NCBI GenBank assembly: GCA_031459765.1
Contig: JAVKHY010000002.1
Location: forward strand, 186,001 to 250,000
DNA length: 64,000 nt
Reading direction: 5' to 3'
From: Armatimonadota bacterium
GTDB lineage: Bacteria > Sysuimicrobiota > Sysuimicrobiia > Sysuimicrobiales > Kaftiobacteriaceae
This document shows positions 15,840 to 60,739 of the stretch, one piece after another (position 1 is the stretch's first letter; each line of letters starts with the position of its first letter). Under the pieces are notes generated by a model that searched no databases, was not told where the DNA came from, and saw nothing but the letters and a program-made list of their open reading frames with translations. The position numbers and the translations under genes are program-made.

Positions 15840-15876
15840 GAGCGAGGAGAGCGTGCATTCCGTACAGGGGCGGATC

Positions 15877-16587
15877 ATGGCGCCGGCGCTGGTGCTGCAG
15901 GGAATCACCAAGTCCTTCGGACCGGTCCGCGCCCTGCGCGGGGTCAGCCTGACTGTGGACGACGGCGAAGCGCTGGCCGTCTTTGGGCCCAACGGCGCCG
16001 GCAAGACGACGCTGCTCAAGATCGCCGCCACGCTCATGCGCCCCACCGCCGGCCGGGTGCTGGTCCGGGGGATGGACCCCGGCCAGCAGGCGCCGCGCCT
16101 GCGGCGGCTGATCGGTCTGGTCTCCCACCACAGTTACCTCTATCCGGGCCTCAGCGGGTACGAGAACCTGCTCTTCGCGGCGCGGATGTACGGCGTGCCC
16201 GGCGCGCCCGGGCGCGTCCGTGCCCTGCTAGAGGCGGTGGGGCTGGCCGGGCGCGGGGACGACCTGGTGCGCACCTACAGCCGCGGGATGGCCCAGCGGC
16301 TGTCTATCGCCCGGGCCCTCGTTCACGACCCCCCGATCCTCCTGCTCGACGAACCCTACACCGGGCTGGACCGCCAGGCGGCGGCGGGCTTCACCGACCT
16401 CCTGCGGGCGATGCGGGGCACGCGCACCATCGTCCTGACCACGCACAGCATCGAGCAGGGGGTGGCCCTCTCCGATCGCGTCGCCATCCTGGTGGACGGG
16501 ACGCTGGCCTACGAGGCCGACAACGGCGCGCGGGACGTGGATACGGTGGAGCGCGTCTACGCCCAATGCGTGGGGGAGCCGGCGTGA
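15877..16587 (+). CDS. ccmA: Heme exporter ABC ATPase CcmA
   Basis: A 236-aa ABC ATPase: Walker A FGPNGAGKTTLLK, signature YSRGMAQRLSIARALVHDP, Walker B ILLLDEPYTGLD, H-loop TTHSIEQG. Shorter than metabolite-transport ATPases and typical of CcmA, which with CcmB and CcmC releases heme-loaded CcmE for cytochrome c assembly. ATG 15877 aligns best with the family; GTG 15853 with a better ribosome site lies upstream but would leave almost no leader after the predicted transcription start. First gene of the ccm operon. Confidence 0.92.
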   Translation: MAPALVLQGITKSFGPVRALRGVSLTVDDGEALAVFGPNGAGKTTLLKIAATLMRPTAGRVLVRGMDPGQQAPRLRRLIGLVSHHSYLYPGLSGYENLLFAARMYGVPGAPGRVRALLEAVGLAGRGDDLVRTYSRGMAQRLSIARALVHDPPILLLDEPYTGLDRQAAAGFTDLLRAMRGTRTIVLTTHSIEQGVALSDRVAILVDGTLAYEADNGARDVDTVERVYAQCVGEPA

Positions 16588-17261
16588 GCGTCCTGGCCGC
16601 GGTGCGCCACCTGCTGTGGAAGGACCTGGTGCTCGAGCTGCGCACGCGGGAGATCCTCGCCACGATGACCCTGTTCGCCCTCCTGGTGGCCGTGGTCTTC
16701 CACTTCGCCTTCTCGCCCGGGCCCGCCGACGCCGCGCGCCTGCTGCCGGGGATGCTGTGGGTGACCCTGGCCTTCGCCTCCACGCTGGGGCTGTCGCGCT
16801 CGTTTGTCCTGGAACGCGACCAGCAGTGTTTGGAGGCGCTGCGCCTCTTCCCGGTGGATCCGGGCCTGATCTACGCGGGCAAGTTCGCGAGCAACCTGCT
16901 CTACCTGCTGGCCGTGGAAGCGCTGCTGCTGCCGGCGCTGGGTGGAATCGCCGGCGTCCCGCTGCGGCCGGCGCTGGGCCCCCTGGGGGCGGTCCTGCTG
17001 CTCGGGAGCGTCGGGCTCGTCGCGGTGGGCACGGTGTTCTCGGCCGTGTCGGTCCACACCGGCATGCGCGAGGTGCTCCTGCCGATCCTGCTGCTCCCCC
17101 TGGCCTCTCCGGTCCTCATCAACGGGGCGCGGGTGACCGCGGGGATTCTGAGCGGGCGGCCGTGGGCCGACCTCCTGCCGGGGGTGCGGCTGCTGATCGC
17201 GTTCGATGTGATCTTTGTTGTCGTCGGCTATTTGATCTTCGAGTACGTCGTGGAGGAGTGA
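16584..17261 (+). CDS. ccmB: Heme exporter membrane protein CcmB
   Basis: A 225-aa protein with six predicted helices and the conserved N-terminal LLWKDLVLELRTRE motif of CcmB. It is the permease partner of CcmA. The GTG start overlaps the ccmA stop (GTGA). The mid-protein SFVLERDQQCLEALRLFPVD region matches the cytoplasmic loop of CcmB. Confidence 0.92.
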   Translation: MSVLAAVRHLLWKDLVLELRTREILATMTLFALLVAVVFHFAFSPGPADAARLLPGMLWVTLAFASTLGLSRSFVLERDQQCLEALRLFPVDPGLIYAGKFASNLLYLLAVEALLLPALGGIAGVPLRPALGPLGAVLLLGSVGLVAVGTVFSAVSVHTGMREVLLPILLLPLASPVLINGARVTAGILSGRPWADLLPGVRLLIAFDVIFVVVGYLIFEYVVEE

Positions 17262-17263
17262 CC

Positions 17264-18028
17264 ATGGCCGTTCCGGCGATCCGAGAGGTCAGGAGCGCTT
17301 CCCCCGGGTTCGACTGGCGGGAAGGCCTCGTCTGGGTTGGCGCCCTGCTGGGCGGGTTCGGCATGTACATGGCGATCCTCTTCGCGCCCGAGGAGGCGAC
17401 CATGAGCCACGCCCAGCGCATCTTCTACGTCCACGTGCCGGCGGCGTGGGTCGGTTTCCTGGCGTTCGCCGTGGTCTTCGTCGCCAGCGCCGCGTTCCTG
17501 TGGACCCGCCGGCGGGCCTTCGATCTCGCCGCCCACGCCAGTACCGAGATCGGCGTGGTCTTCACCACGCTGGCCATCATCAGCGGCGCGGTGTGGGGGA
17601 AGGCGGTCTGGGGGACCTGGTGGACGTGGGACCCGCGTCTGACCACCACCTTCATGCTCTGGTTCATCTACACCGTGTCGTTGATGGTTCGCGCCTACGG
17701 CGGCCCCTCGGGCCAGAGCGCCCGCTTCGCCGCCGTGCTCGGCGTTGTCGGCTTCCTGGACATCCCGCTGATCCACCTCTCCGTCCTCTGGTGGCGGTCG
17801 CTGCACCCGCTGCCGGTGGTCCTCCGGACGGAGGGTTTCGGCACGGGGCTGCCGCCCCAGATGCTCTGGGCGCTGCTGACCAACGTGGCGGCCTTCACGG
17901 TGCTGTACATCCTATTGTTCAGCATCCGGCGCGCCCAGCTCGCGGCCCAGGACGCCCTCAGCGCGCAGCAGGAGCAGGGGCGACGGACCCGGCCGACCGC
18001 GGAGGCTGCGAAGGAGGGATGGCGATGA
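17264..18028 (+). CDS. ccmC: Heme-handling protein CcmC
   Basis: A 254-aa member of the heme-handling protein superfamily with six helices. The tryptophan-rich signature is GTWWTWDPRLTT, and conserved His residues flank it (FYVHVPAAW and PLIHLSVLWWRSLHP). CcmC moves heme onto CcmE. It begins two bases after ccmB. The C-terminal ~30 residues are an Ala/Gln/Arg-rich tail not needed in the family. Confidence 0.95.
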   Translation: MAVPAIREVRSASPGFDWREGLVWVGALLGGFGMYMAILFAPEEATMSHAQRIFYVHVPAAWVGFLAFAVVFVASAAFLWTRRRAFDLAAHASTEIGVVFTTLAIISGAVWGKAVWGTWWTWDPRLTTTFMLWFIYTVSLMVRAYGGPSGQSARFAAVLGVVGFLDIPLIHLSVLWWRSLHPLPVVLRTEGFGTGLPPQMLWALLTNVAAFTVLYILLFSIRRAQLAAQDALSAQQEQGRRTRPTAEAAKEGWR

Positions 18029-18153
18029 ATCCGTTGACGGCGATGTTCATCGGCTTCGCCGTGGTCTGGGTCGGGCTCTTCCTGTATGTGCTGCGGCTGC
18101 ACCGCCTGGGGCGCGAGATCGAACGGAAGCTCCGCACGGAGTCCCGACCGTGA
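18025..18153 (+). CDS. ccmD: CcmD
   Basis: A 42-aa single-span protein (MFIGFAVVWVGLFLYVLRLH) followed by a basic tail, the normal form of CcmD, which helps release holo-CcmE from CcmABC. It overlaps ccmC by ATGA and ccmE by GTGA. Confidence 0.85.
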   Translation: MNPLTAMFIGFAVVWVGLFLYVLRLHRLGREIERKLRTESRP

Positions 18154-18545
18154 GCCGCACGGGTCGAAAGATCCTGGTCGCTGCGGCCACCTTCGTCCTG
18201 GCCGGAACCTACCTGGCCTACAGCGGCGCGCGCAACAGTATGGCCTATTACCTGACGGTGGGGGAGCTACTCGACCGGGCCGGGTCGGTCCGCGACGCCG
18301 ATATCCGCCTCGGCGGCAGGGTGGCGGCGGGCGGCGTGGTCTGGGACCAGGTCTCGGGCGACCTGGCGTTCCAGATCACCGACGGGAGCCGCACCCTGCC
18401 GGTCCGCTACCGGGGCGTGGTGCCGGACGCCTTCAAGCCTGGGGCCGACGTGGTGGTGGAGGGGCGCTTCGACGGCACGACGTTCCAGGCCCGGCGCCTG
18501 TTCGCCAAGTGCCCCTCCAAATTCGAGGCGAAGCCGCCTCGTTGA
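18150..18545 (+). CDS. ccmE: Heme chaperone CcmE, Cys-type
   Basis: A 131-aa periplasmic heme chaperone: N-terminal anchor, OB-fold domain (SMAYYLTVGELL, GGRVAAGGVVWD, VRYRGVVPDAFKPG, VVVEGRF). Classical CcmE binds heme through His in a HxxxY motif. Here the equivalent is AKCPSKFE, so the ligand is Cys as in the CxxxY CcmE of Desulfovibrio and archaea, and the usual Tyr is Phe. Neither covalent chemistry nor release has been described for a CxxxF form, to my knowledge. The start is GTG overlapping ccmD. Confidence 0.92.
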   Translation: MSRTGRKILVAAATFVLAGTYLAYSGARNSMAYYLTVGELLDRAGSVRDADIRLGGRVAAGGVVWDQVSGDLAFQITDGSRTLPVRYRGVVPDAFKPGADVVVEGRFDGTTFQARRLFAKCPSKFEAKPPR

Positions 18546-18571
18546 GCGACGATCCATGAGGAGCCCGCGCG

Positions 18572-20541
<1,970 letters not shown>

Positions 20542-20542
<1 letters not shown>

Positions 20543-21000
20543 TGCGGATCCTGGTGCTGATCGCCGCGCTGACTCTGACCCTGGCCGCGCACCCGTCCGT
20601 CGCCCGCGGGGCGGACCGTGGATTGGCCGGGGAGTTCATGTGCCAGTGCGGCTGCGGCCTGACGCTGGCCAGCTGCACACATCTCTCCTGCGGCCCGCGC
20701 GATGCGGCCCTGGCCGAACTGGCCAGCCTGGAGCGGGCGGGCCGCAGCCGGGCGGAGATCCGGGCCGCGTTCGTCGCGCGCTACGGCGAGAGGGTGCTTG
20801 CCGCGCCGCTGCGGCGGGGGTTCAACCTCCTGGCCTACTGGGGCCCGTACTGGGCCATCGGCTCGGGAGCCCTGGTGATCGTGGCGCTGGCCCTGGCCTG
20901 GACCCGCCGCGGGGAAGGGGCGGGGCACGCGGCGGCGCCGGCGCTGAGCAGGGAGCAGCGCGAGTGGCTGGAGCGCCAGCTCCGGGCGCTGGAGGACTGA
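20542..21000 (+). CDS. ccmH: CcmH/CycL-type apocytochrome thiol oxidoreductase
   Basis: A 152-aa exported protein: signal peptide, three-helix domain, then one anchor helix and an amphipathic tail. In place of the usual LRCxxCQ, the active-site region reads FMCQCGCGLTLASCTHLSCG, with five cysteines, a form seen in CcmH of other deep-branching bacteria (recalled). It would reduce the CxxCH thiols before heme ligation. The start overlaps the ccmF stop by one base. Confidence 0.85.
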
Positions 21001-50168: not shown

Positions 50169-50825
50169 TCAGGCGTCGGCCTCGACGAGGCCCTTGCGGA
50201 TGGCGTACTTGATGAGCTCGGCCGGCCGGTGCAGATCGAGTTTCTCCATGATGCGCTGGCGGTGGGCGGAGACCGTCTTCACCGAGAGGTGGAGCATCTC
50301 GGCGATCTCCGGGCTGGTGTACCCCTCCGCCAGGAGCTTGAGGATCTCGCGTTCCCGCGTGGTCAGCTGCGCGTAGGAGGTGGCCTCCTCTCCCGCTTCG
50401 ACCCGGCGCAGGTAGTCGCCGACCAGGGACTTGGCCATGGACGGGAAGAGGTAGGTCTCCCCTCGCGAAGCGGCCTCGATGGCGTCCACGAGCTCGGCCG
50501 GGCGGGCCTTCTTCAGCACGTAACCGCAGGCCCCGGCGCGCAGCATCTGGAACAGATACTCCTCGTTCTCGTGCACGGTGAGGGCGAGCACCTGGACATC
50601 GGGGAACTCCTCCTTGATGCGCCGTGTCGCCTCGACCCCCCCGACCTTCGGCATGGCGATGTCCATGAGGACGACGTCGGGGCGCAGCCGCCGCACCTGC
50701 TCCAGCGCCGCCAGTCCGTCCTCCGCTTCACCCACGACTTCCATGTTGGGCGCGGACTCCAGCAGCGCGCGCAGGCCGGCCCGGACCAGGGTGTGGTCAT
50801 CCACGATCAGCAGACGCAGAGCCAT
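50169..50825 (-). CDS. NarL/FixJ-family response regulator
   Basis: A 218-aa regulator: receiver (LIVDDHTLVRAG, phosphoacceptor in VVLMDIAMPKVGG, Lys in VLKKARP) and GerE HTH (LTTREREILKLLAEGYTSPE, LHLSVKTVSAHRQRIMEKLD). It follows the heme-motif sensor kinase by 34 bases and is its cognate regulator. Closely similar to the orphan regulator at 8096-8773. Confidence 0.94.
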   Translation of the reverse strand: MALRLLIVDDHTLVRAGLRALLESAPNMEVVGEAEDGLAALEQVRRLRPDVVLMDIAMPKVGGVEATRRIKEEFPDVQVLALTVHENEEYLFQMLRAGACGYVLKKARPAELVDAIEAASRGETYLFPSMAKSLVGDYLRRVEAGEEATSYAQLTTREREILKLLAEGYTSPEIAEMLHLSVKTVSAHRQRIMEKLDLHRPAELIKYAIRKGLVEADA

Positions 50826-50859
50826 GCGACCCCCTCCCCGGCCGACAACGCCGGCCGGT

Positions 50860-52770
50860 TCACGCCGCCGCCTCCGCCGGCACGGGCACGGTCATCGCCA
50901 CCACCGTCCCCCGCCCGGGCGCGGAGGCGATCTCGAGCCGGCCGCCCAGCAGCGTCACGCGCTCCTCCATCCCGGCGATCCCCAGGCGCCGCCGATCCGG
51001 GGAGGCGCGCAGGGCCGCGGCCTCGAACCCGACCCCGTCGTCGGCCACCTGCAGGCGTACCGCGCCGCCCTCCAGCGTCAGAGAGATGGCCACGGTCCTG
51101 GCGTGGGCATGGCGGGCCACGTTGGTGATCGCCTCCTGGGCCACCCGGAAGACGGTCGTCTCGACGGCGGAGGGGAGGCGGCCCGTGCCGAAGCCCGCCG
51201 CCGCGAAGCGCACCTCGATGCCCTGCGCCTCCAGCAGCGTCCTGGCGTAGTGGCGGACGGCCGGCACCAGCCCCAGATCGTCCAGTAGCGTCGGGCGGAG
51301 AGCGAAGACGATCTTGCGAACCTCCTCCAGCGTGGACTCGGCGACGGTGCGGATCGTCCCCAGCGCGCGCTGAAGCCGGGCGGGATCCGTCGCGCCCTCA
51401 TGCTCCACGGCGTTGAGACTCATCATCAGGCTCGTCAGCGACTGGCTGACTTCGTCGTGCAGCTCGCGGGCGATCCGGAAGCGTTCCTCCTCGTGCGCCC
51501 GGATAAGGCGGGCCAGCAGCTCGCCGCGCAACCGTTCCTTGTCCCGCAACTCCTCGAAGAGCCTCCGGTTCTCCAGGGCCGTGGCCAGATGGCCGGCCGC
51601 GGTGGTGAAGAGCGTCAGATCCGCTTCCTCGAACGCCACGGGCCGCTCGCGGGCGACGATGATCCCGCCGAAGGTCTGCTCCCTGGTCCGCACCGGCACG
51701 GCCAGCCCCGCGCCCGGGGGGACGACCTCGCAGCACACCTCGGCGGGACCGACGGGATAGCACAGCGCCCGGCCGGTCTCCGCCGCGCGGACGACGATGC
51801 GCGCGCCGGTGGCTTCGAGCAGGGACGTCGCCCCCGCGCCCGCCAGCAACGTGGCCTGCCCCCCGTCCACGCCGTAGATGGCGCAGGCGTCCGCCCCCAC
51901 GATCTCCATGAAGACCGCCGCCGCCTCCGCCAGTCCCGCGCGCAGATCCGGCGCTTCGATCAGGGTGCGGCTAAAGATGGTGAGCGTGGACAGGCGCCGG
52001 GTGAGGTCCTCGATGCGGGCGCGCTGGGCGCGGGTGTACCGCTCGATCCGGCCGCTCATGTCGTTGAAGGCGGCGGCGAGCATCCCCAGTTCGTCCGAGG
52101 TCTGCACCGAGGAGCGCGCCCCGTAGTTGCCCCGAGAGATCTCCTTGACGGTGGCGACGATGTCGGAGAGCGGATCCAGCACGAACCGGCCGAGCAGCAC
52201 GCTCAGCGTGCCCAACGCCAGCAGAAAGGTGAACCCCACCAGTCCCGTCAGGAGCCGCGCGCTGCCCCGCAGGTGCGACTCGACGTGGGCCGTGTCCAGC
52301 GAGACGACGGTCGCCCCCAGGATGCGCGGGCCGGCGGTGTGGCAGCCCCGGCACTCTTCCCGGTTGGGGATCGGCGTGAACACCACCAGCTCGCTGTCCT
52401 CGGGCCGCTCCTCGGTGCGCGGCGTCCCGGTGGCGATGACCTGGGCCAGCAGCGTCGACGGCTGCAGGGTGCCGATCTCGTCGGGGTTGCTGCTCGCCCA
52501 CACCCGGCTGTCCGGGGCGTAGATGGCCACCCGTTCGATCATCGGCGCCCGCTCGATGTGCCGGATGATCTGTCGCATCTCGGTGGGGTTGTTGTTCACC
52601 ATCGTCGTGGTCAGGCTGTGCAGGATGGTCTCCGTCAGCGTCCTGGCCATCGTTTCAAACTGCGCCAGCCCCGCCGCCCGCTGGAAGAGCAGGAGCGCGT
52701 AGATCGAGGTCCCCCCCACGCCGAGGAAGATGACCACGATCCAGAGGGTAATCTTGAGGTGGAGGCGCAT
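50860..52770 (-). CDS. NarX-like sensor kinase with periplasmic heme-c motif
   Basis: A 636-aa kinase: helix 1, periplasmic domain (residues ~30-180) carrying the c-type heme site EECRGCHTAG, helix 2, HAMP, GAF domain (~300-430; DACAIYGVDGGQATLLAGAG), and a HisKA_3/HATPase core (ARELHDEVSQSLTSLMMSLN, VAQEAITNVARHAHA, VADDGVGFE). A CxxCH in the sensor domain means covalent heme, so NO, CO, O2 or redox sensing is likely. It sits directly after cytochrome b and heptaheme cytochrome c genes. Confidence 0.92.
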   Translation of the reverse strand: MRLHLKITLWIVVIFLGVGGTSIYALLLFQRAAGLAQFETMARTLTETILHSLTTTMVNNNPTEMRQIIRHIERAPMIERVAIYAPDSRVWASSNPDEIGTLQPSTLLAQVIATGTPRTEERPEDSELVVFTPIPNREECRGCHTAGPRILGATVVSLDTAHVESHLRGSARLLTGLVGFTFLLALGTLSVLLGRFVLDPLSDIVATVKEISRGNYGARSSVQTSDELGMLAAAFNDMSGRIERYTRAQRARIEDLTRRLSTLTIFSRTLIEAPDLRAGLAEAAAVFMEIVGADACAIYGVDGGQATLLAGAGATSLLEATGARIVVRAAETGRALCYPVGPAEVCCEVVPPGAGLAVPVRTREQTFGGIIVARERPVAFEEADLTLFTTAAGHLATALENRRLFEELRDKERLRGELLARLIRAHEEERFRIARELHDEVSQSLTSLMMSLNAVEHEGATDPARLQRALGTIRTVAESTLEEVRKIVFALRPTLLDDLGLVPAVRHYARTLLEAQGIEVRFAAAGFGTGRLPSAVETTVFRVAQEAITNVARHAHARTVAISLTLEGGAVRLQVADDGVGFEAAALRASPDRRRLGIAGMEERVTLLGGRLEIASAPGRGTVVAMTVPVPAEAAA

Positions 52771-52778
52771 CGCCGTCG

Positions 52779-53525
52779 CTACGCCCGGGACGGCGGCTCG
52801 GGCAAGGTGTCCTCCGGCCCGCCGACGCCGGCCGCGTCCTCGTCGACGATCAGCCCCGCCTCCAGCAGGCGCAGGTACTCCGCCCGGTGGTCGTGCCGCA
52901 GGCGCTCCAGCGGAATGGCGCCGGTCCACATCGCCGGGTCCAGGGGAAAGACGTCCGGACGGAAGTGGGCGTTGTAGAAGTGCCAGATGATCACGGCCAG
53001 GACGGCCAGCAGCGCCTCGCCGCCGTGGGCGACCCGGGCGGCCGGCACCAGCACGCCGGGCAGGACGCGGGCCAGGGCCTCCGGAAACCACATGATCAGC
53101 CCGCTGGTGGCCATCACCGCCGTGCCCCACACCACGGCCCAGTACTCCAGCTTCTGGCGGTAGTCGAAGCGGGCGAAGGCCGGCTTCGTCGGACGCAGCC
53201 CCACCAGGTAGGCGATGTCGCCGACGACGTCGCGCACATCCTGGAAGCTCACGTTCATCTCCCCGCGCTCCCGGCCCCGGCGCCGGGCGACGATGACGGC
53301 GCCGACGTGAAAGACGGCCTCGGCGATCAGGATCACGGCGAAGGTGCGGTGGATGAACCGCACCTGCTCGATGCCGCCCAGGACCTGGATGATCCGCTCC
53401 GCCCACGCGGCCTGGAAGTACTTCTGAGGCAGACCCGTCAGGGCCAGCACGTTGAAGGAGATGATGAGCACGAAGTGCTCGATCCGCTGGGCCAGGGTGA
53501 ACCGCGGGACCATCCGGACGCTCAC
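52779..53525 (-). CDS. Cytochrome b of a quinone-linked redox complex
   Basis: A 248-aa membrane protein with four helices and His pairs (RIEHFVLIISFNVLALTG, IHRTFAVILIAEAVFHVG, GGEALLAVLAVIIWHFYNAH) as in formate-dehydrogenase gamma and Ni/Fe-hydrogenase cytochrome b subunits. It binds two hemes b across the membrane. GTG overlaps the heptaheme gene's stop (GTGA). The likely job is quinol oxidation or quinone reduction coupled to the heptaheme protein. Confidence 0.87.
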   Translation of the reverse strand: MSVRMVPRFTLAQRIEHFVLIISFNVLALTGLPQKYFQAAWAERIIQVLGGIEQVRFIHRTFAVILIAEAVFHVGAVIVARRRGRERGEMNVSFQDVRDVVGDIAYLVGLRPTKPAFARFDYRQKLEYWAVVWGTAVMATSGLIMWFPEALARVLPGVLVPAARVAHGGEALLAVLAVIIWHFYNAHFRPDVFPLDPAMWTGAIPLERLRHDHRAEYLRLLEAGLIVDEDAAGVGGPEDTLPEPPSRA

Positions 53526-54460
53526 CCCGTCCGCCCCCTTCGCAGCTGGTCGGTGGCCCAGCGGCCCAGGTCCAGGACAGTGAGCACCCCCAGGAACCCC
53601 ACCGTGGCCGGGATGAGAATCCGGTAGAAGATCTGCACGTAGTAGACGAGCGGCGAAGCGTCCGGCGACGGCGTCCGGTGCTCCGTCCAGGCTGTGGCGA
53701 AGAACCGCCCCGCGGTGGGATGGCAGCGGCGGCAGGTGGCCAGAACGTTGGCCGGATGGACCATCGAGGCGGGGTCGGAGGCGGCGCGGATGCCATGCCC
53801 CCCGTGGCAGTCGGTACAGATCGCGGCCGGGGTGGGGCTCTGCGGTCTGGTCAGTTTGTACAGGGTCGTGGTCACGCCGTGGAACTCGCTGATGTAGGTG
53901 GTGTAGACCGCCCGCAGCCCGTACTTCCCCATGATCGCCGGATCGGCGTGACAGGTCCCGCACAGCTGGGGGATGTTGTTGCGGAAGACCGGGGTCTTCA
54001 CCCGGGCGGCGTCGTGGGGATTGTGGCAGGTGGTGCAGTTCGGCGTATCCCCGAAGCCCATCCGTCCGGCCCGGCCGTGTACGCTGGCCCCGAAGGTTTC
54101 GGCGGCATCGGCATGACAGGTGGCGCAGACCCGGGCCCGCGCCTCGCGGTACTCCCGCATCGTCGTCGCCCGCACCGCCGGATGGGGCACGGCGACGTTG
54201 GCGGGGTGGCACGCGGTGCAGGCCAGGGCCCGGCCGTGGGCGGAGGCGTTGAAGCGCGCGGCGTCGATGGTGACGGAGATGACTTCCGTGCTGGGAAGTT
54301 GCAGGACCATGCCGGGGGCGGTGTGGCAGGCCAGGCAGGCCTCGTTTTCCTGCCGGGTGTCCTGCGCCAGCACCGCCGGCGGGCGGGCCGCGGCGGCGCC
54401 GAGCAGCGTCCCGCCCAAGACGGCGCCGAGAACGATTGGGACCAACCGCGCAGAGCTCAC
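53522..54460 (-). CDS. Membrane-anchored heptaheme c-type cytochrome
   Basis: A ~312-aa exported protein with seven CxxCH motifs (CLACH, CTACH, CATCH, CTTCH, CGTCH, CTDCH, CRRCH) and a C-terminal helix (YRILIPATVGFLGVLTVLDL). The start is uncertain: codons for GTG at 54460 lie after the predicted transcription start (~54470), whereas ATG 54505 lies before it. The protein would take electrons from cytochrome b and pass them to a periplasmic or extracellular acceptor. Confidence 0.87.
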   Translation of the reverse strand: MSSARLVPIVLGAVLGGTLLGAAAARPPAVLAQDTRQENEACLACHTAPGMVLQLPSTEVISVTIDAARFNASAHGRALACTACHPANVAVPHPAVRATTMREYREARARVCATCHADAAETFGASVHGRAGRMGFGDTPNCTTCHNPHDAARVKTPVFRNNIPQLCGTCHADPAIMGKYGLRAVYTTYISEFHGVTTTLYKLTRPQSPTPAAICTDCHGGHGIRAASDPASMVHPANVLATCRRCHPTAGRFFATAWTEHRTPSPDASPLVYYVQIFYRILIPATVGFLGVLTVLDLGRWATDQLRRGRTG

Positions 54461-54476
54461 AAGAGGTCCCACTCCC

Positions 54477-54521
54477 ACTATAGGAATCGACCCGAACCTC
54501 CTCATCGGGCGGGGAACCGAT
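54477..54521 (-). promoter_or_regulatory. Palindromic box plus TATAGT -10 of heptaheme operon
   Basis: Read on the minus strand, ATCGGTT-CCCC-GCCCGAT (54504-54521) is followed after 21 bases by TATAGT (54477-54482). Confidence 0.68.
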
Positions 54522-54595
54522 TTGCCCTCGCGCCCCTGCCGGATCGCCGAACCGGCATCAGGGGCGCGGGGGCGGACAAGATCAGGCGGGGGGTG

Positions 54596-54706
54596 CTAGC
54601 GGCACACGGTGTGGATCAGCGAGACGATGAACGTCGCCACGAACGCCGTGACGAGGATCATCACGATCCCGCTGAGCAGTTCAAGCCTGCTGTTGCGCTC
54701 GTCCAC
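54596..54706 (-). CDS. 36-aa single-span membrane peptide
   Basis: GTG with GAGGAGGAGG upstream opens a frame of 36 codons: a charged head VDERNSRLELL, one membrane helix (SGIVMILVTAFVATFIVSLI) and a short tail HTVCR. It is 54 bases after the upstream two-helix protein gene on the same strand. Size and form suggest a small subunit or regulator of a membrane complex; nothing more can be said. Confidence 0.5.
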   Translation of the reverse strand: MDERNSRLELLSGIVMILVTAFVATFIVSLIHTVCR

Positions 54707-54760
54707 GGCCGCCTCCTCCTCGACGTCCGTCTCTGCCGGGTCGCGTCCTGCCACCCGGCC

Positions 54761-55009
54761 CTACGGGGCGAGCAGGACGACGTACGTCGCGTAGACGCCG
54801 GCCGCCACCATGGCCAGCCCGAGCCCTGCGGTCAACAGGTGCAGGGCCGCGGCGACTCCCTGGGCCGGGTCCAGGTGGGCGATCTCGCCCGCCATCCGCC
54901 GCACGGCGAGCGTCCGCAGGCGCCGTCCCGCGGAGAGCGCCAGGAACGCCCCGGCCGCGACCAGCGACCAGAACACCAGGAAGGCCAGCGCGATGCCAAC
55001 CGGATGCAT
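54761..55009 (-). CDS. Two-helix membrane protein
   Basis: An 82-aa protein with an N-terminal helix (IALAFLVFWSLVAAGAFLAL), a basic loop and a second helix (LTAGLGLAMVAAGVYATYVV). No conserved cofactor ligands are visible. It lies 15 bases after the atypical receiver gene and before the 36-aa membrane peptide, likely one transcript. Function unknown. Confidence 0.55.
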   Translation of the reverse strand: MHPVGIALAFLVFWSLVAAGAFLALSAGRRLRTLAVRRMAGEIAHLDPAQGVAAALHLLTAGLGLAMVAAGVYATYVVLLAP

Positions 55010-55024
55010 CGATCCTCCTCCTCC

Positions 55025-55387
55025 TCAACCGGCCCGGGCCAGGGGTGGGTGTTCCACCGCCTCCTCGATCGCCCTGATGATCGAGGTCAGCCTGGCCGCC
55101 CCCTGGCCCATGCCGTCGTAGATCCGCATCTCATCCTCGATGAGATCGAGCACCAGGACCCGCACCCGGGCGCTGCCCCGGATGATTTCGGAGATCCCCA
55201 GCGGGTGCTCGCGCTCCACGATGCGGTCGGTGAGGACGACGTCGGGACGGGCCGCGAGAATGGCGGGCACGGCCGCGGCGGCGTCCGACGCGATGCCGAC
55301 GACCTCCATTCCCTCCCGCCTCAGGACCGGCTCCATCACCTTGGCGAAGAGGTGGTGCCCGTACCAGATGAAAACCCGCGGCTTCAC
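55025..55387 (-). CDS. Atypical stand-alone receiver domain
   Basis: A ~120-aa receiver-like protein: VKPRVFIWYGHHLFAKVMEP, VVLTDRIVEREHP, LVLDLIEDEM. The first acidic pair of the pocket is missing (WYGHH instead of DD), and the usual Lys is not evident, so phosphorylation is doubtful. An Asp is at the phosphoacceptor position (LTD). GTG 55387 has GGAGG upstream. Pseudo-receivers may act by protein contact. Shares a transcript with two small membrane proteins. Confidence 0.6.
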   Translation of the reverse strand: MKPRVFIWYGHHLFAKVMEPVLRREGMEVVGIASDAAAAVPAILAARPDVVLTDRIVEREHPLGISEIIRGSARVRVLVLDLIEDEMRIYDGMGQGAARLTSIIRAIEEAVEHPPLARAG

Positions 55388-55406
55388 CGCTATCGCCTCC
55401 GCCTTC

Positions 55407-55452
55407 ACCGTACCTGAGGAGGGAGAGGGCGCCCATCGAGTCTGCGGGCGAT
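55407..55452 (-). promoter_or_regulatory. Palindromic box plus -10 for atypical receiver operon
   Basis: Read on the minus strand, ATCGCCC-GCAG-ACTCGAT (55435-55452) is followed after 22 bases by TACGGT (55407-55412). Arms are imperfect, but spacing agrees. Further GATCAGGC half-sites lie at about 55494 and 55540. Confidence 0.45.
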
Positions 55453-55639
55453 CGGGGATGCCCAAAGCCGACCAGAAACCCGCGGCGGGACGGATCAGGC
55501 GCGGTAGCCCCGCCGATCAGGATCTCCGGGCCGGGACGGATCAGGCGCGGACGTCCGGACGGCTAGACGCCTCTGGCCCGTTGGGACTAGTGCGGCAGGG
55601 TGGAAGACGCGCCGCCTCGGCACCGCGGCGCGGGCGGGC

Positions 55640-56293
55640 TCAGCGCCGCTCCGGAGGACGGTCGGCCAGGCCCATCCGCACGGCGTAGAGGGCGGCCTGG
55701 ACGCGGTTCTGCAGGTGCAGCTTCTCGAGGATGTTGCGGAGATGATTCTTCACCGTATTCTCCGAGATCTTCAACTGGAAGGCGATCTCCTTGTTGGCCA
55801 GGCCCGCGGCCAGCAGCTCCAGGACCTGCCGTTCCCGTGCGGTGAGCGTCTCCACCGCCGGCTCAGCGGGGGCGGCCAGTTCCCGCAGGATCTTCGCCGC
55901 CATCGTCGGCGCGATCGGCACCTCGCCGCGCTGCACCTGCAGGATCGCGGCCACGAGCTGGTCGGGATCGACGTTCTTCAGCAGGTAGCCGGAGGCCCCC
56001 GCTTTGATGGCCTCGAAGAGGTCCTCGTCGGTCTCCGAGACCGTCAGCATCATGATGCGGATATAGGGCATCTCCGCCTTGAGCTGCTTCGCCGCGGCCA
56101 GGCCGTCCATACCCGGCATCTTGATGTCCATCAACACGACGTCGGGCATCACGTCCCGCGCGCGCTCGATGGCCTCCTTGCCGTTGCCGGCCTCGCCCAC
56201 CACCTCGAACTGCTCGTGCTCGCGGAGCAACGAGCTCACGCCGCGGCGAAAGAGCTCGTGGTCGTCGACGATCAGAACGCGGATGGGATCCAC
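55640..56293 (-). CDS. NarL/FixJ-family response regulator
   Basis: A 217-aa regulator: receiver (LIVDDHELFRRG, phosphoacceptor in VVLMDIKMPGMDG, Lys in LLKNVDP) and GerE HTH (LTARERQVLELLAAGLANKE, LKISENTVKNHLRNILEKLH). Its start overlaps the kinase stop by ~20 bases, so the pair is cotranslated. Confidence 0.94.
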   Translation of the reverse strand: MDPIRVLIVDDHELFRRGVSSLLREHEQFEVVGEAGNGKEAIERARDVMPDVVLMDIKMPGMDGLAAAKQLKAEMPYIRIMMLTVSETDEDLFEAIKAGASGYLLKNVDPDQLVAAILQVQRGEVPIAPTMAAKILRELAAPAEPAVETLTARERQVLELLAAGLANKEIAFQLKISENTVKNHLRNILEKLHLQNRVQAALYAVRMGLADRPPERR

Positions 56294-57855
56294 AACGTCA
56301 CCCTGGTGCCCTGCCCGGGGGCCGAGGTCACCTCCAGCCTCCCGCCGATGCTCTCCGCGCGTTCCTTCATGGTCAGCAGGCCGAAGTGCATCCCTTTCGC
56401 GCCTTCGACGGCGGCCACGTCGAACCCCCTGCCGTCGTCGGCGATGGAGACGACGGCGGTGGCGCCCTCCCGGGAGAAGCGGATCTCCACGGAACGCGCC
56501 CGGGCGTGCTTGCGCACGTTGGTCAGCGCCTCCTGCACGATCCGGATGACCTGGGCCTCCACCGCCGGCGGCAGGCGCAACTCCTCCGGGGCCTCCAGGC
56601 GGATGGCCAGGCCGGTCTGCTCGCGCAGACGCTGTACGTACTCCTGCAGCCCAGCCACCAGACCCCTGGCCTGCGGTGCGGAGCGCAGGCTGAGGATCGC
56701 CTGCCGGACATCCTCATAGGCCTCCTGGACCGCGGCGCGCATCTGGCGCAGCTCCGCACCGGCGTCCTCCGGCCGGCCGCGGGCGATGAGGTCCTCGGCC
56801 ACCTTGGCCTTGAGGTTGACAAACCCGAGCACCTGGCCGAGGCTGTCGTGCATCTCCCGGGCCAGACGGTCCCGCTCCTCCAGGATGGCCAGACGGCGCA
56901 CCTGCTGGAACAACTCTTCGGTGCGGTCCCTCACCTTCTCCTCGAGTTCTTCCGCCGCCCGCCGCGCCACTTCCAGGGCTTCGTTCTTGGCCCGCAGCTC
57001 TCCCTCGCGCGCCGCGGCCAGGGCGCGCGCGTATTCCAGGTCGAAGACGCGCAGGATGCGCACGCCGAAGAAGGCGATGAGCACGGCCAGGGCGGCGCGG
57101 AAGACCTGGGGGGGCAGGCCCACCACGGAAAGGAACTGGTCGTAGTTCAGCCAGCGGGCCAGTCCGGAGTGCGCCGGGGGGACGACCAACCCGGCGACGA
57201 GGCCGTTGGCCAGGAAGGCGGCGGCCATCCACCGGCAGTCCCGGGCCGGGCGCTGGTACCCGCTCTTCGCGAACAGCCGCCCCTGGACCCACAGGGCCGC
57301 CGTGGCGAAGGCGGAAGCCGGGAGGTAGATCAGGTAGCGGACCCAGATGTCGCCGACGGCCGTCGAGGGGACCCAGGTGATGGCCGCGGCAGCCGGTGCC
57401 GCCGTGGACAGGTCGTGGCAGCGCAGGCAGGAGGCCTCGGTGGGCGTCCAGCGCGCCGTGGCCAGGGGATTCAGGTGGGGCCCCACGGCCCAGTAGGCCA
57501 GCCAGAAGAGGAAGAGGGCGGCCGGGATCCAGCGGACCCCCCGGTACCGCGGGACCAGGGCGCCCAGGAGCGAGGTGCCGAAGACCGCCAGCAACACGGT
57601 GGAGGCGGCGAAGAGCGTCAGGCGGGCGACACGGGCCACCGCGGCCGCCGCCGGTTGCAGGGGCCAGGGCAGGAGCAGCCACATGTCGATCCACTCCACG
57701 ACGCCGTGCAACAGGCCGAAGCCCGCCAGGTACTTCAGCGAGGCCGCCAGGCGCAGTTCGGTGGTCCGCCGCGCCTCCAGGGCGATGGCCAGGCCCATGG
57801 CGAAGAAGGCCAGGCCGTAAACGAAAAACACACCCACCAGCCGCGGCGTGGGCAT
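56272..57855 (-). CDS. Membrane sensor kinase with CxxCH in the sensor loop
   Basis: A 527-aa kinase. About seven hydrophobic segments in the first ~270 residues form a membrane sensor; between segments 4 and 5 a periplasmic loop has ASCLRCHDLS, a c-type heme site. A coiled linker (EGELRAKNEALEVARRAAEE) leads to a HisKA_3 core (AREMHDSLGQVLGFVNLKAK, VQEALTNVRKHARA, IADDGRGFD). It is the second heme-motif kinase in 7 kb but with an unrelated sensor. It may read quinone or cytochrome redox state, or a gas. Divergent from citrate synthase. Confidence 0.88.
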   Translation of the reverse strand: MPTPRLVGVFFVYGLAFFAMGLAIALEARRTTELRLAASLKYLAGFGLLHGVVEWIDMWLLLPWPLQPAAAAVARVARLTLFAASTVLLAVFGTSLLGALVPRYRGVRWIPAALFLFWLAYWAVGPHLNPLATARWTPTEASCLRCHDLSTAAPAAAAITWVPSTAVGDIWVRYLIYLPASAFATAALWVQGRLFAKSGYQRPARDCRWMAAAFLANGLVAGLVVPPAHSGLARWLNYDQFLSVVGLPPQVFRAALAVLIAFFGVRILRVFDLEYARALAAAREGELRAKNEALEVARRAAEELEEKVRDRTEELFQQVRRLAILEERDRLAREMHDSLGQVLGFVNLKAKVAEDLIARGRPEDAGAELRQMRAAVQEAYEDVRQAILSLRSAPQARGLVAGLQEYVQRLREQTGLAIRLEAPEELRLPPAVEAQVIRIVQEALTNVRKHARARSVEIRFSREGATAVVSIADDGRGFDVAAVEGAKGMHFGLLTMKERAESIGGRLEVTSAPGQGTRVTLWIPSAF

Positions 57856-59346: not shown

Positions 59347-59859
59347 ATGGGGACCGGCCGGGTGCTCTCCGGGGCGGGGCTCGCCGCCGTTCTGGCGGCA
59401 GTGACGGTGGCTCTCCTCGCCAACACCAGCAATCCCCCGAGTGGGCAGAGCGCCTCCCCAGAGCTCCGCATCCCGGCGGCCCTGGCCGGTACCCCATTGA
59501 TCTCGACCCTCCGGGGGACGGAGGCCCTCGAGGCGATTGCGCGGCTGCACGGCCGGAAGATCGATGCCGTGGACGCGGCCGTCGTCCGCTATGCCGGCGG
59601 GATCACGGTCTGGATCGGCGCTTCCTCCTCTCCGCTCCGGGCGGCCGCGCTCCTGTGGCGCATGAACCGCAGCATGGCCGGCGGCACGCAGGGGTTCAGC
59701 GCTCCCCGCCCGCAGCAGCGGAGAGGCCGGACCGTCTTCGTGACGGACGGACTGGACCGGCGGCACGCCTACTACCAGTCCGGGCGATTCGTCCTGTGGA
59801 TTGCCTCCGCCGCCGACGTCGGTGAGGCGCTGGAGGACCTGCTGGACTTCTACCCTTAG
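59347..59859 (+). CDS. Exported protein of unknown function
   Basis: A 170-aa protein with a signal peptide or anchor (LSGAGLAAVLAAVTVALLA) and a soluble alpha/beta domain (IPAALAGTPLISTLRGTEAL, VVRYAGGITVWIGASSSPLR, ALLWRMNRSMAGG, RHAYYQSGRFVLWIASAADV). No heme or metal motifs. It sits seven bases after citrate synthase and ten bases before the decaheme cytochrome, so it may assist that cytochrome. Family not recognised. Confidence 0.6.
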   Translation: MGTGRVLSGAGLAAVLAAVTVALLANTSNPPSGQSASPELRIPAALAGTPLISTLRGTEALEAIARLHGRKIDAVDAAVVRYAGGITVWIGASSSPLRAAALLWRMNRSMAGGTQGFSAPRPQQRRGRTVFVTDGLDRRHAYYQSGRFVLWIASAADVGEALEDLLDFYP

Positions 59860-59869
59860 GGCCGAGGAG

Positions 59870-60739
59870 ATGAACAGCGCCAGATCGGGTGGGTGGCGAC
59901 AACGTTGGCGCACCGTCTGGGCCCGACTGACCGACCTCCCTCGCGGCTGGCTGATCGCGCTCGTCGCCGCGGCAGCCTCGAGCGCCGCGCTGCTGGTCTA
60001 CGGCGGGGTCACCGTCTACGACTACACCATGAACAACCCGGCCTTCTGCCGGTCGTGCCACACCATGGAGGCGGCGTGGAACCGCTGGGCCACCAGCGAG
60101 CACCGGAAGGTGGACTGCCACGCCTGTCATGAGCAGAGCGTCATCGAATCCGCCCGCCAGGTCATCACCTTCGCCCTGCGGCGCCCAGAGCGGGTGGGCA
60201 AGCACGCCGTCGTGCCCTCAGCCCGCTGCGCCACCTGCCATACCAGCGGCAATCCGGCCTGGAAGCAAGTGGCGGCCACCGCCGGTCATCAGGTCCATGC
60301 CGAGGTCAGGAAGATCGCCTGCGTCACCTGCCACAGCGTGGCTATCCACCGGCTGGTCCGCCCTCCGGAGGTCTGCGGCACCTGCCACGAAGCCCAGGTG
60401 GCCGGCCCCCGGGCGATCAAGATCGCGGCCATGGCCGACTTTCACTGCGTGGACTGCCATCAGTTCCTGCGGCCGAACAGCCCCCTGCGGCCGACGGCCC
60501 AGACGTGCCTGGAATGTCATCAGGCGCTGCCCGCGAAGACCACCGTGGGTTGGCCGGAGGGCCGCGCCCACAGCGCGCTGAGCTGCGCCGCCTGCCACCG
60601 GCCTCATGAGCGCGCCGCCCCCATCGTGAACTGCACCTCCTGCCACGCCGCACCCACGCCGGAGATCCACGCGCCGATCCTGCGGAGCAGGACGGCCTGC
60701 ACCACGTGCCATCAGCCCCACTACTGGAAGGTGCGGTAG
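59870..60739 (+). CDS. Decaheme NapC/NirT-like c-type cytochrome
   Basis: A 289-aa protein: N-terminal anchor helix (WLIALVAAAASSAALLVYGG) and ten CxxCH motifs in order CRSCH, CHACH, CATCH, CVTCH, CGTCH, CVDCH, CLECH, CAACH, CTSCH, CTTCH. The first part (MNNPAFCRSCHTMEAAWNRW) is the NapC/NrfH quinol-dehydrogenase signature. NapC has four hemes and TorC five, so this is an extended form, more like the multiheme quinol-to-outside wires. Ends with a bidirectional terminator. Confidence 0.9.
   Translation: MNSARSGGWRQRWRTVWARLTDLPRGWLIALVAAAASSAALLVYGGVTVYDYTMNNPAFCRSCHTMEAAWNRWATSEHRKVDCHACHEQSVIESARQVITFALRRPERVGKHAVVPSARCATCHTSGNPAWKQVAATAGHQVHAEVRKIACVTCHSVAIHRLVRPPEVCGTCHEAQVAGPRAIKIAAMADFHCVDCHQFLRPNSPLRPTAQTCLECHQALPAKTTVGWPEGRAHSALSCAACHRPHERAAPIVNCTSCHAAPTPEIHAPILRSRTACTTCHQPHYWKVR

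Follow-up and report, generated by a model that had tools for sequence, protein, structure and literature searches.

A block of same-strand genes at 57855-50169 of a 64,000-nucleotide window from an Armatimonadota bacterium (GenBank assembly GCA_031459765.1, contig JAVKHY010000002.1, positions 186,001 to 250,000) probably encodes a membrane module that carries electrons from quinol to the periplasm and is bracketed by two heme-c two-component systems tuned to periplasmic redox potential or to nitric oxide (NO) or carbon monoxide (CO). We call the sensor histidine kinases of these systems HK1 and HK2 and their partner response regulators RR1 and RR2. Between them are the genes for a heptaheme c-type cytochrome and a b561-type membrane cytochrome (cytochrome b). 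A preliminary description of this DNA reported four genes in a row encoding the two cytochromes, HK1 and RR1. These genes are all intact on the minus strand at 54505-50169, and seven CxxCH motifs were counted in the heptaheme cytochrome (starting at amino acids 57, 96, 127, 157, 182, 230 and 258). The heptaheme and cytochrome b genes overlap by 4 bp, cytochrome b is 8 bp from HK1 and HK1 is 34 bp from RR1, which makes a single transcript plausible. The description omitted HK2, a second CxxCH kinase; the same-strand cluster extends past 54505 to 57855 and there encodes a small membrane protein, a receiver-like protein (REC3), RR2 and HK2.

The heptaheme cytochrome contains PF09699 and the cytochrome b contains PF01292, which is the make-up given in passages of PMC7726332 for CbcA and CbcB (a heptaheme protein with PF09699 and a b561 protein with PF01292). 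The cytochrome b scored 52.8 bits with TIGR01583, the formate dehydrogenase gamma subunit model, below the cut-off of 115.85. Parts of two papers give -0.2 V as the approximate potential at which CbcBA works (PMC12307469, PMC9129911). The simplest reading is that the cytochrome pair would form a low-potential module, passing electrons from quinol to cytochrome, and that the heme-c sensors would control its expression.

The periplasmic sensor of HK1

HK1 was described as a NarX-like kinase with CRGCH in its periplasmic domain and an extra GAF domain. The motif is present there as a single copy (C140, C143 and H144) and is kept, together with Met57, in all ten relatives of HK1 found in the phylum. 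Pfam confirmed the GAF domain at about amino acids 276-401, between HAMP (192-243) and the HisKA_3 (429-495) and HATPase (537-631) domains. The likeness to NarX holds for the HisKA_3 kinase half, whereas the sensor half is a Cache domain, and HK1 scored 101 with the NCBIfam NarX model against a cut-off of 578. We rejected a NarX-type nitrate sensor because the sensor half has no match. RR1, described as a NarL regulator, is LuxR-type with Response_reg and GerE domains but reached only 149.5 bits with the NarL model against a cut-off of 250; NarL was also the best NCBIfam match of RR2, at 208.7 bits. All matches to the NCBIfam NarX, NarL, MctS and MctR models were under their cut-offs.

The HK1 sensor scored 30.1 bits with PF21563 (Mcp40H-20_sensor; cut-off 27), and a profile of the ten phylum relatives matched two heme-c sensors of known structure, 3b42 (E 1.1e-9) and 3b47 (E 1.4e-3). 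In the profile alignment the CxxCH motifs coincide and an invariant Met in column 41, which is Met57 of HK1, falls on Met60 of GSU0935, a position that we derived from the CxxCH numbering in passages of PMC8396549 (Cys140, Cys143, His144 and Met60). Foldseek with an AlphaFold2 (AF2) model of HK1 found 3b42 at 2.3e-5, among other Cache sensors. Because the CxxCH is present in all ten phylum relatives and lies in a domain that matches these structures, it is not a chance motif. HK1 has a single extracytoplasmic Cache domain between two membrane helices, a conserved CxxCH and an aligned distal Met that is predicted to be a ligand. In passages of the preprint PMC12889525 the family with these features is named sCache_heme, fusions to histidine kinases are reported, and GSU0935 is counted within the DUF3365/Tll0287 family. 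HK1 had no match to PF11845 (DUF3365/Tll0287) at E up to 1. The motif holds the only Cys residues in amino acids 1-218 of HK1, so Cys/His ligation of the Tll0287 type is not expected. Based on the PF21563, 3b42 and 3b47 matches, the aligned Met and the sCache_heme literature, HK1 is by sequence a further member of the known heme-c Cache type of GSU0935 and GSU0582, and ordinary for that family.

The proposal that HK1 has a heme-c sensor domain thus agrees with the family match, the invariant CxxCH and the presence of a cytochrome c maturation (ccm) locus in the window. The PF01578 matches of this locus are near 17354 and 18833, and there is a second PF01578 pair elsewhere in the genome; together these make heme attachment feasible.

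Relatives of HK1 that cover the sensor are present in 10 of 43 genomes of the phylum (one of them split and one ended by its contig), and HK1 is 78% identical to its counterpart in the metagenome-assembled genome (MAG) Armatimonadetes bacterium RBG_19FT_COMBO_69_19, a match on which we base a tentative placing of the window in Sysuimicrobiota (CSP1-3). RR1 lies 3' of HK1 in nine of the ten, and in the tenth the contig ends inside HK1. In the split case, from genome G011, the relative is divided at GAF into two open reading frames (ORFs; L153:8083-9962, minus strand), possibly by a frameshift or an assembly error.

The membrane domain of HK2

HK2 has a CLRCH motif at amino acids 143-147, in the loop between transmembrane helices 4 and 5 (the TM4-TM5 loop). 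No Pfam or NCBIfam model matched its first 282 residues over cut-off; this N-terminus is polytopic and no Cache model matched it, which does not fit an sCache_heme sensor. In 17 heme-motif sequences from the phylum and from Chloroflexota, the density of Lys and Arg is 16-20 per 100 amino acids in predicted inside loops and 0.7-4.3 in outside ones, and this contrast places the motif loop outside. The only invariant positions of the loop in these sequences are C143, C146, H147 and one Trp. Two relatives, L220 and L221 (wider loci L272 and L273), have C..CH in the TM2-TM3 loop instead, also predicted to be outside. Since this is a different loop, the heme motif was either acquired at two separate sites of a single scaffold or relocated. 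A published parallel is the insertion of such a peptide into Cache domains. We found no description of a heme-c seven-helix kinase in the open-licence PubMed Central literature, and HK2 appears to be a membrane-embedded heme-c sensor that is undescribed in the family libraries and literature searched.

Heme-motif relatives of HK2 were found in nine genomes of the phylum, and in 9/9 HK2-RR2 lies within a few kb of a heptaheme gene, in the same order. Because the genomes are related, these are not nine independent events, and the count refers to HK2 with the heptaheme gene (cytochrome b in L159 was not listed by the gene caller). Gene calls in the relatives came from a simple in-house script, which overlooked or misplaced some genes. 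L038, L162 and G063 all belong to the genome G017, and the four count as one. Heptaheme relatives are present in 10 of the 43 genomes of the phylum; in the tenth, G002, HK2 found no match at threshold, and a kinase without CxxCH lies nearby (L161). HK2 is therefore the constant partner kinase of the cytochrome genes, and the operon link is tight for HK2 and loose for HK1. ORFs with 10-12 CxxCH motifs were also seen near HK2 in all nine loci.

The membrane domain is more widespread than its motif. Matches to it were found in 25 of 198 genomes of Nitrospirota (the phylum of L092), where 20/20 loci examined lack CxxCH, and in 33 of 350 genomes of Chloroflexota, a sample that overlaps in genomes with another of our searches for HK2 relatives; among the best 25 Chloroflexota loci many relatives lack CxxCH. 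No relatives were found in plasmids, in viral contigs or, at E 1e-20 and without a positive control, in 297 genomes of the phylum of L042 (Acidobacteria). We built a tree of 62 domains of the HK2 type (19 with CxxCH and 43 without) after dropping duplicates and domains spanning fewer than 200 model positions, and a single clade of 21 rows (support 100/98) contains all 19 that carry the heme motif.

In the Chloroflexota MAG locus L235 the gene order is an HK2-type kinase (CLQCH), a response regulator, a receiver-like protein, a small protein, a cytochrome with 11 CxxCH motifs, cytochrome b, a kinase with CHDCH and a response regulator. The order in L236 is similar up to a cut kinase gene, with the receiver-like and small genes not called; cytochrome b in L235, L236 and L161 was located by tblastn. 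Thus a kinase gene follows cytochrome b in both phyla, and in the two complete cases the folds of the CxxCH sensors differ. The kinase in this slot of L235 (L235:1274-3172, minus strand) has CHDCH inside its Cache region and a kinase half 45% identical to that of HK1; because its sensor is a dCache_1 domain, it is not an orthologue of HK1 by sensor. As an observation in its own right, this kinase beside an 11-heme cytochrome and cytochrome b may represent a third fold of heme-c sensor kinase. Other heme-motif relatives of HK2 have varied neighbours, which were read as NrfD, Fe-S (iron-sulfur) and hexaheme proteins at L237 and include a molybdopterin oxidoreductase match at L202. Near a heme-less relative in a Chloroflexota MAG there is an ORF with 17 CxxCH motifs (L206:5724-8159, minus strand).

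From these results we slightly favor the view that HK2 stands for a class of heme-c sensor not described before, in which CxxCH peptides are inserted at two outer loops (TM4-TM5, and TM2-TM3 in L220 and L221) of a polytopic seven-helix domain, and that HK2 and a differently folded second heme-c kinase give one electron-transfer module a two-input reading of periplasmic redox potential or NO, in an arrangement common to two phyla.

Signaling model and alternatives

In the mechanism that we propose, the heptaheme and b561 cytochromes and the small membrane proteins would form a CbcBA-like module passing electrons from quinol to the periplasm, and a single c-type heme would be attached covalently to each of HK1 and HK2, on the outer side of the membrane. 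In HK1, His144 would ligate the heme proximally and Met57, by prediction, distally; release of Met57 on oxidation, or its displacement by NO or CO, would signal through HAMP to the kinase and then to RR1. In HK2, the heme-binding peptide inserted in the TM4-TM5 loop of the seven-helix domain would signal to RR2. Acting together, the two kinases would adjust the expression of the module according to periplasmic redox potential or to NO or CO. In passages of PMC8396549, Met60 of GSU0935 ligates the reduced heme, is released on oxidation and is displaced by NO or CO, and the potentials given are -156 mV for GSU0582 and -251 mV for GSU0935. According to passages of PMC12889525, a signaling-fused sCache_heme protein binds NO and releases it slowly.

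Several points weigh against this model, and they bear on both kinases. Heme attachment on HK1 and HK2, the ligands, the signal and the action of RR1 and RR2 on the cluster are what we infer, and do not come from experiment. In the AF2 model of HK1 the motif sits in a loop among Cache-like strands and helices, and the model of HK2 shows seven helices of membrane length, with the motif between the fourth and the fifth; both models are of low confidence (pLDDT, the predicted local distance difference test score, of 62 and 56, respectively). We identified no conserved distal ligand peculiar to the forms of HK2 that carry the heme motif. The heme clade also includes two heme-less domains, L225 and L226, which require two changes, and its inner forks are without resolution. 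If the heme motif were tied to cytochrome control, then more multiheme neighbors would be expected. Counting at least one ORF with at least four CxxCH motifs within 7 kb, for 54 domains (19 with and 35 without CxxCH) whose flanks often end at contig ends, we found such neighbors for 12/19 heme-motif and 11/35 heme-less domains. Nine of the 12 are one inherited phylum cluster, and outside the phylum there is no enrichment (3/10 versus 11/35), so a link of the HK2 motif to cytochrome control is not supported by this route.

A further point of this kind is that HK1 is unlinked from cytochrome genes in 7/10 of its phylum relatives. The preliminary description took HK1 to be the operon's own kinase. 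Across the phylum a dedicated operon kinase was rejected, since HK1-RR1 abuts cytochrome genes in only 3/10 relatives: G000, G017 of the same genus and, convergently, G014. The unlinked kinases are on another contig or tens of kb from any heptaheme gene, and G011 has no heptaheme match at E 1e-20. The neighbors of HK1 across the phylum, which we named by reading and not by family search, vary: upstream of the kinase in G008, G009, G010 and G011 are genes whose G008 copies read as an NAD-type formate dehydrogenase, while elsewhere there is a HybA-type Fe-S protein (G014 and G041, with HybA/HybB-type neighbors) or a multiheme ORF with five CxxCH (G005). HK1-RR1 could therefore be a free-standing redox sensor with other targets that only recently came to adjoin these cytochrome genes. 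This is possible, although the 8-bp gap on the same strand, the same order in G017 and the different CxxCH kinase in the same slot of the Chloroflexota MAG lead us to favor a connection to the cytochrome module.

It is rather unlikely that both kinases sense NO and not redox potential, with ferrous heme binding NO tightly and the operon acting in a nitrosative response. The slow NO off-rate reported for the sCache_heme protein is consistent with this idea, as is the heme-motif HK2 relative L238 of Chloroflexota, which lies near genes for an NnrS/DUF1858 protein, a hemerythrin and a Crp-like regulator. By contrast, HK1 has the Met ligand of GSU0935, which passages of PMC8396549 describe as a redox-linked spin and ligand switch. 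We found no NirK match over cut-off in the genome (NirS and NrfA were not searched), and of its COX1-family matches the two that exceed the cut-off read as oxidases, while a short fragment under the cut-off is unassigned. This weakens NO as an endogenous signal and counts also against the NO part of the two-system model.

The preliminary description offered either cytochrome maturation capacity or periplasmic redox state as the signal. Periplasmic redox state is likely, or else a gas. Maturation sensing, in which heme attachment is itself the signal and apo versus holo sensor reports on capacity, is very improbable. The ccm machinery that serves the neighboring cytochrome would be needed by both kinases too, and the HK2 relative L200 is close to a ResB gene; this neighborhood was seen in one locus only, there is no positive evidence for maturation sensing, and passages of PMC12889525 and PMC8396549 describe the known members of the family as sensing redox state or gases. 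The known behavior of heme-c Cache domains, redox-linked loss of Met and binding of NO or CO, seems the better guide.

For HK2 alone, the CxxCH might be a thiol switch or a metal site in an exported loop and not a heme site. The missing distal ligand would fit this, we found no structure of the domain, and the match to TIGR01904, a c-type cytochrome domain, is only 12.6 bits. We consider it improbable because C..CH including the His is invariant in the 17 sequences and the second group (L220 and L221) has C..CH in another outer loop. Exported CxxCH motifs are normally hemylated by System I, and this genome has two sets of PF01578 genes.

Outside Geobacter, little is known of the ways in which bacteria read periplasmic redox potential when selecting among electron-transfer chains. 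If the model of two heme-c systems is correct, then heme-c sensing is tied directly to a cytochrome module that it possibly regulates, in uncultured lineages, and heme-c peptides are also built into non-Cache scaffolds, here membrane-embedded. Heme-c sensor kinases would consequently be under-counted by searches relying on PF11845 or PF21563. HK2 is the part of this finding worth following.

Locus features and comparison with known systems

The features of the locus and of the ccm genes are given in Table 1. By reading, the N-terminal acidic pair seems to be absent from REC3 and a candidate phospho-Asp is kept, so it is possibly a pseudo-receiver. Neither the 82-amino-acid membrane protein nor the 36-amino-acid peptide matched a Pfam family. 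Counterparts of the latter are present in 4/10 other loci checked (L149, L155, L156 and L162), and it is a possible small subunit of the cytochrome module. L157 has a possible 81-amino-acid ORF with two CxxCH motifs in the gap preceding the heptaheme gene (L157:11589-11834, plus strand). Outside the cluster, 59801-60739 on the plus strand encodes a cytochrome with ten CxxCH motifs and a marginal NapC/NirT match at its N-terminus (PF03264, 24.3 bits; cut-off 24.1). The CcmA/B-like ORFs at 15853-17261 were named by reading. The classical heme-binding motif of CcmE is HxxxY; this region reads CPSKF here and is perhaps a Cys-type variant.

Table 1. Genes of the two-kinase cytochrome cluster and the ccm locus (positions in the window)
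Feature	Position	Strand	Characteristics
Heptaheme c-type cytochrome	53522-54505	-	7 CxxCH; PF09699, PF14522; N-terminal signal/anchor, C-terminal hydrophobic segment
b561-type membrane cytochrome	52779-53525	-	PF01292, 51.1 bits
HK1 sensor kinase, 636 aa	50860-52770	-	sCache_heme-type periplasmic domain, HAMP, GAF, HisKA_3, HATPase_c
RR1, LuxR-type response regulator, HK1 partner	50169-50825	-	Response_reg, GerE
HK2 sensor kinase	56272-57855	-	N-terminal seven-helix membrane domain with CLRCH, then HisKA_3-HATPase (Pfam)
RR2, LuxR/NarL-type response regulator, HK2 partner	55640-56293	-	Response_reg, GerE; overlaps HK2 3' end
REC3, receiver-like protein	55025-55465	-	PF00072, 22.6 bits, under cut-off; present in several related loci; putative function
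Small membrane protein, 82 aa	54761-55009	-	Homologues in relatives; conserved between REC3 and cytochromes
Putative 36-aa single-helix peptide, GTG start	54596-54706	-	Similar peptides in equivalent gap of relatives
ccm locus	15853-21000	+	CcmE, two PF01578 matches, CcmA/B-like ORFs
CcmE	18150-18545	+	PF03100, 95.3 bits

The two kinases differ in how closely they follow known systems. Like GSU0935 and GSU0582 of Geobacter sulfurreducens (3b42 and 3b47; PF21563) and the DUF3365/Tll0287 family, HK1 has a single CxxCH and an aligned distal Met in a periplasmic Cache domain that is flanked by two helices, with HAMP next. Its output is a GAF-HisKA_3 kinase, whereas that of GSU0935 and GSU0582 is a chemotaxis domain, and it is encoded with a b/c cytochrome pair. 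HK2 shares its membrane domain, by profile, with heme-less seven-helix kinases of Nitrospirota and Chloroflexota for which there is no Pfam model, but these lack the CxxCH loop that HK2 and its clade carry. Both systems resemble NarX/NarQ-NarL in having a HisKA_3 kinase and a LuxR-type regulator beside respiratory genes; they differ in that the NarX, NarQ and NarL models are below cut-off and the sensors are a CxxCH Cache domain in HK1 and a seven-helix domain in HK2. The cytochrome pair has the same heptaheme PF09699 and b561 PF01292 make-up as CbcBA of G. sulfurreducens, compared by the features listed in parts of the published work, with the gene order here c then b. Passages of PMC8396549 also include two-motif heme signaling proteins, GSU0591 and GSU0599, with locus numbers close to those of CbcBA (GSU0593/GSU0594).

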